Shown here in pieces: positions 57,178 through 57,423 of a DNA stretch of 64,000 nucleotides. Position numbers and translations under genes: made by a program. The notes under the pieces were generated by a model, which was not told the origin of the DNA, searched no databases, and saw only the letters and a program-made list of their open reading frames with translations. Positions within the stretch are counted from its first letter, which is position 1; each line of letters begins with the position of its first letter. The DNA lies in contig NZ_CP011994.1 of assembly GCF_001632845.1 (NCBI RefSeq), positions 2,614,001-2,678,000 on the forward strand, read 5' to 3'. The DNA is from Ectothiorhodospira sp. BSL-9. GTDB taxonomy: Bacteria; Pseudomonadota; Gammaproteobacteria; Ectothiorhodospirales; Ectothiorhodospiraceae.

Positions 57178-57193
57178 TGTCGCGAACCCCACA
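57178..57193 (+). promoter_or_regulatory. NifA upstream activator sequence (TGT-N10-ACA)
   Basis: TGT (57178-57180) and ACA (57191-57193) flank exactly ten bases, the NifA enhancer consensus. The site lies about 120 bases upstream of the sigma-54 promoter of nifF, the usual distance. Confidence 0.72.
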
Positions 57194-57254
57194 TTGGGGC
57201 AAACGCCCTGTTGTGGTGCGCTACGCCACCCTCTGCGGGAGCGGCATGACAGGA

Positions 57255-57267
57255 TTAAATGTTGATC
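57255..57267 (-). promoter_or_regulatory. IHF-like site between NifA site and sigma-54 promoter
   Basis: Read on the minus strand the sequence is GATCAACATTTAA, which fits the IHF core ATCAA-N4-TTR with one mismatch in the second half. It lies between the NifA site and the -24 box, where IHF bends DNA in nif promoters. Confidence 0.5.
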
Positions 57268-57308
57268 CAAAACAGCAGGATACGCGAGTGCTCTGTGTTT
57301 TTCCAGGA

Positions 57309-57325
57309 TTGGCATGGGAATTGCC
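57309..57325 (+). promoter_or_regulatory. Sigma-54 promoter of nifF
   Basis: TTGGCATGGGAATTGCC carries the invariant GG (57311-57312) and GC (57323-57324) exactly twelve bases apart, and most of the TGGCACG-N4-TTGC consensus. Transcription would start near 57336, about 88 bases before the nifF ATG. Confidence 0.8.
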
Positions 57326-57423
57326 CTTACTTTTGGCGAGGTCTTACGGGGCAAGGCACGCCCAAGGCGAGCGCCCGGGCGCAGCACCCCCCGTCATCCA
57401 TTCTTTACCAAGAGGGCAATAGT

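Follow-up and report, generated by a model that had tools for sequence, protein, structure and literature searches.

An off-cluster flavodoxin gene under NifA control has been described before. In Azoarcus sp. BH72, the flavodoxin gene nifF1 (azo0014) lies outside the nif cluster and is preceded by predicted RpoN and NifA sites; it is reported to be induced 2.7-fold under nitrogen fixation, with NifA as a positive regulator (PMC3916325, excerpt). The purple phototroph Rhodobacter capsulatus has one flavodoxin, NifF, which is also encoded away from the nitrogen-fixation clusters (PMC10936413, excerpt). According to the same excerpt, R. capsulatus NifF donates electrons to Mo-nitrogenase in vitro, does not change significantly under N2-fixing conditions with Fe-nitrogenase, and is dispensable; deletion of nifF did not slow diazotrophic growth. 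The flavodoxin gene of Azotobacter chroococcum is reported inside the main nif cluster (PMC4465626, excerpt). A sister species of BSL-9 is reported to have nitrogenase genes and is hence expected to grow on N2 (PMC10224512, excerpt). A literature search for Ectothiorhodospira together with nifF found no description, and a word search of the genome announcement for strain BSL-9 (PMC5064118) gave no match to nif or to nitrogen.

The gene described here lies in a window of 64,000 nucleotides (the whole stretch of DNA that was analysed) from Ectothiorhodospira sp. BSL-9, whose genome contig has 3,550,080 bases. BSL-9 nifF resembles Azoarcus nifF1 in being an off-cluster flavodoxin gene with NifA and RpoN sites; expression of the Azoarcus gene has been measured, whereas control of the BSL-9 gene is predicted from its sequence. 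It is also off-cluster like R. capsulatus nifF, for which the excerpt of PMC10936413 describes no NifA control region, and unlike the A. chroococcum gene it is found about 0.71 Mb from nifH. The region 57178-57423 is interpreted as the nifF promoter region under NifA/sigma-54 control, with a probability of roughly 0.9. The features of the locus, in window coordinates, are:

57178..57193, plus strand: putative NifA-type upstream activator site TGTCGCGAACCCCACA (TGT-N10-ACA), read from the sequence; TGT and ACA are invariant in 9/9 genus orthologues
57255..57267, minus strand: IHF-like match GATCAACATTTAA, the best match in the spacer, with 2 mismatches in 9 informative positions; not above chance
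57310..57324, plus strand: putative -24/-12 (sigma-54) promoter TGGCATGGGAATTGC, read from the sequence; GGCA and TTGC are invariant in 9/9 genus orthologues
57410..57416, plus strand: likely ribosome-binding site AAGAGGG, read from the sequence; kept in seven of nine aligned orthologues and altered in the other two
57424..57966, plus strand: nifF, encoding a 180-aa long-chain flavodoxin with a loop as in nif-type flavodoxins; assigned by TIGR01752, by PDB relatives and by orthologues that align from the ATG at 57424
57973..58002, plus strand: 12-pair stem (-23.5 kcal/mol, z -2.84) followed by a T run, the likely intrinsic terminator of nifF

The nifF product scores 216.9 bits against NCBIfam TIGR01752 (cut-off 146.75), which identifies it as a long-chain flavodoxin. 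Its best solved relatives are the 'Flavodoxin 2' entries 5k9b and 1yob, which we take to be Azotobacter vinelandii NifF; 2wc1, presumably Rhodobacter NifF, is also related. The alignment is gap-free to 5k9b and 1yob (178-179 residues) and to 2wc1, and it includes a loop of 12 protein letters which is absent from the next-best solved flavodoxins, 2mok and 5ljp (gapped there). The three loop-sharing structures presumably belong to proteins with a role in nitrogen fixation. Among the 16 NCBIfam matches listed, the best are two broad models, 'flavodoxin FldA' subfamily and long-chain flavodoxin, and none is named for NifF. The initial annotation placed this flavodoxin closest to the nitrogenase flavodoxins, and the best PDB relatives and the common loop agree with that placement, with FldA as the NCBIfam label. 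A search of the genome with the nifF sequence at E 0.001 gave no match besides nifF itself. There are seven Flavodoxin_1 matches, and the frames that hold the six besides nifF are 223 to 741 aa long. A longer nifF frame starting at 57259 (235 aa) was rejected because it begins before the promoter and because orthologues align from 57424. The stem and T run after nifF suggest that it is probably transcribed alone, as a one-gene unit; a consensus terminator scan gave one match, in the same stem, against an expectation of 1.4 from shuffling the region scanned.

NifA sites have the form TGT-N10-ACA, and the promoter follows them at a distance of about 80-150 bp. The nifF spacing is 132 bp, start to start, which is inside this range; the activator site is 246 bp and the -24/-12 promoter 114 bp from the ATG. 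The promoter reads TGGCAT-N5-TTGC, with GG at 57311-57312 and GC at 57323-57324, twelve bases or one helical turn apart. From the usual -24/-12 spacing, the transcription start is predicted near 57336. An activator site and a -24/-12 promoter in the right order and spacing had been proposed for this region at the outset. Both motifs are exact matches, at 57178-57193 and 57310-57324, and the arrangement holds as well, as a strict pair in the window that is kept in 9/9 genus orthologues. The fold of the predicted leader (57336-57430) is nothing unusual (z 0.31). An Rfam search of 56400-58150 returned two matches only, both far below gathering scores, and a sigma-70 consensus scan of 56900-57423 found no site.

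An IHF site between the NifA site and the promoter is common but not universal, and one had been proposed here too. That proposal is not supported: the best match, mismatched at 2/9 informative positions, is equalled by 41% of 200 shuffled spacers. Across orthologues, only AAA is invariant in the 57255-57267 stretch. When other loci were scored in the same way, the smallest share of equally good shuffles was 0.045, in a distant locus (L077). IHF is the sole element of the proposed control region that is unsupported.

Chance expectations for the window were taken from a first-order Markov model (60 simulations, both strands counted). TGT-N10-ACA means nothing on its own, with 8 counted against 16.6 expected; the motif is symmetric, so every site is counted on both strands. 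In a separate scan, a loose sigma-54 consensus (up to 3 mismatches) has 240 matches against 259 expected, which is no excess; matches are therefore informative only when strict, spaced and conserved. The strict promoter, TGGCAY-N5-TTGC, is seen once in the window against 0.37 expected, and the spaced pair of activator site and strict promoter once against 0.017 (1 pair in 60 simulations).

Across the genome, the strict promoter has 21 matches against 9 for the reversed control, some of them in duplicated contig ends, and TGT-N10-ACA lies within 260 bp upstream of two of the 21: those of nifF and nifH. A broader spaced pattern (TGGC-N7-TTGC with an activator site 60-121 bp upstream) picks out five distinct promoters in the 3.55 Mb genome and none in the reversed control. 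Four of these precede nitrogen-fixation genes, namely nifH, nifL (two activator sites), nifF and cowN. The fifth, at 1,961.8 kb, is apparently within a coding frame, judged by eye, and is a probable chance site. The gene behind the site at 2,166.8 kb is cowN, which scores 119.9 bits (cut-off 48). It is located near 2166764 (G000:C1, L101), far from the nif cluster, with a NifA-type site, a -24/-12 promoter and an AT-rich spacer. The broader pattern missed the pairs at nifE, where the activator site is 60 bp ahead of the GG, and at nifB, which has two activator sites. A looser spaced pattern, used for nifE, nifB and the 11 loci described below, was relaxed after the genus sites were known; it gave one extra match, at 2,403,070, which overlaps the nifL control region. 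The same kind of spaced pair is thus found at nifH, nifE, nifL, nifB and cowN of the BSL-9 genome.

The pair is conserved within the genus. TGT-N10-ACA and GGCA-N6-TTGC are in register in all nine genus genomes with a detected nifF; CGGC replaces TGGC in two of them. Mean column identity of the upstream alignment is 43% overall, and the proteins fall into four groups that are 96-99, 83-84, 81 and 76% identical to the window nifF. A further 11 loci were fetched by protein similarity: eight from Ectothiorhodospira, which overlap in species with the nine genus genomes, and three from metagenome bins. The spaced pair precedes nifF in ten of the 11 and occurs nowhere else in their 272,826 strand-bases. 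The exception, L079, has 72% protein identity and lies about 5 kb from a nifH; it has no TGT-N10-ACA in the 450 bp upstream. The three flavodoxins of L080-L082 are more distant, at 39-43% identity, and have neither site upstream. In a class-level set of 369 genomes, nine matched at E 1e-50: two Ectothiorhodospira and seven further relatives (L083-L089). L083 has both sites in order; L088 has a site of the activator type, and its promoter is poorer. The ordered pair is absent from the remaining five.

The partners that such control would need, and which the initial annotation proposed to look for elsewhere in the genome, are all present over the cut-offs of their curated models. The scores are 461.9 bits for nifH, 863.1 for nifD, 881.2 for nifK, 692.5-700.4 for nifA (cut-off 528.85) and 494.8 for rpoN at 0.43 Mb (cut-off 277.35). 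The genes nifH, nifD, nifK, nifE and nifN are located near 3.38 Mb with that of a nif-specific ferredoxin III; nifL, nifA and nifB are at 2.403-2.408 Mb, with rnfA divergent. At 2.671 Mb, nifF is about 0.71 Mb from nifH and about 0.27 Mb from nifA on the contig, so its description as a stand-alone gene with no nif cluster nearby is correct. Of 13 nif and rnf proteins of the organism itself, none has a match at E 1e-15 in the window or in any of the eight Ectothiorhodospira loci. In three other loci, nifF has nif neighbours at a distance of up to about 6 kb: nifV and nifS in L077 and L078, and nifH in L079.

The ends of the contig (G000:C1:1-22379 and 3527690-3550080) duplicate each other over 22.4 kb with 99.91% identity, 0 mismatches and 18 gap openings. 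The simplest reading is that a circular overlap was left untrimmed in the assembly; genes in these ends, one of the NifH family among them, are counted twice.

In a family sample of 47 genomes (38 of them at least 90% complete), nifH is over the cut-off in ten, and nine of those ten have nifF. None of the remaining 37 genomes has it. In the tenth nifH-bearing genome (G046), nifF is not detected at the sensitivity used. One genus member, G007, has neither gene.

The rare, conserved spaced pair, the nif genes in the genome and the co-occurrence of nifF with nifH are together best explained by a NifA/sigma-54 regulon of which nifF is a dispersed member, with NifA assigned as the activator of nifF by motif. 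It is unlikely that the -24/-12 promoter is real but serves another sigma-54 activator, such as NtrC or a regulator linked to stress or iron, which drives a general-purpose flavodoxin. Other activators of this class do exist in the genome (13 further matches to the nifA model score above 200 bits and below its cut-off), and the lack of a second self-match to nifF makes a wider role possible; a group of ExbB/TolQ-, ExbD/TolR- and TonB-like genes is also found downstream. However, the upstream site matches the NifA form, is invariant in 9/9 orthologues and is common to nifH, nifL, nifE, nifB and cowN, and nifF is confined to nifH-bearing genomes of the family sample. The likely terminator separates nifF from the ExbB/ExbD/TonB-like group, and two E. 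mobilis strains showed no such group between nifF and pyrG. A further reading, in which the motifs are coincidental and an unrecognised promoter drives nifF, is very improbable: single activator sites are common and loose sigma-54 matches are at chance level, but the strict spaced pair is rare, with four of its five genomic promoters at nitrogen-fixation genes, and is conserved across the genus, and the sigma-70 scan found nothing upstream of nifF.

Control of nifF by NifA and sigma-54 would operate as follows, judged by what is established for NifA, NifL and the flavodoxins of nitrogen fixation. Under low fixed nitrogen and oxygen, NifA released from NifL would bind TGT-N10-ACA at 57178-57193. 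Bound NifA would remodel the sigma-54 RNA polymerase at TGGCATGGGAATTGC, and transcription would start near 57336. The resulting flavodoxin would supply the nitrogenase iron protein with low-potential electrons.

Genes for metK, a sarcosine/dimethylglycine methyltransferase and a glycine/sarcosine methyltransferase are found at 53685-56545 on the minus strand, divergent from nifF. This group is associated with glycine betaine synthesis; its middle gene is below its curated cut-off. The same neighbours are present in seven of the eight Ectothiorhodospira loci. A block at 56960-57110 (minus strand), before the glycine/sarcosine methyltransferase gene, is well conserved between BSL-9 and E. mobilis; it matches no Rfam family at gathering score and is possibly the promoter of that gene. 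On the other side of nifF, at 58010-60465, the motif GATAATGATTAGC, which we take to be Fur-box-like, lies ahead of the ExbB/TolQ-, ExbD/TolR- and TonB-like group. This group is found between nifF and pyrG in six of the eight genus loci. At 59700-60080, the TonB-like protein carries a very long Pro-Glu repeat; the DNA of this repeat is open in other frames on both strands.

An off-cluster nifF with NifA control is already known from Azoarcus BH72, and the Ectothiorhodospira case, not found described in the literature searched, is an ordinary, well-supported one. It leaves the understanding of NifA control unchanged. A search of the BSL-9 genome for the strict spaced motif finds dispersed nitrogen-fixation genes with few false matches, and the analysis as a whole defines a candidate NifA regulon (nifH, nifE, nifL, nifB, nifF and cowN) for a haloalkaliphilic purple sulfur bacterium. 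More tentatively, and with somewhat less than even odds, the Ectothiorhodospira NifA regulon may be functionally scattered. Under such an arrangement, single-gene outposts such as nifF and cowN would have NifA promoters of their own at a distance from the nif cluster, and the only close long-chain flavodoxin relative would thereby be reserved for nitrogenase.
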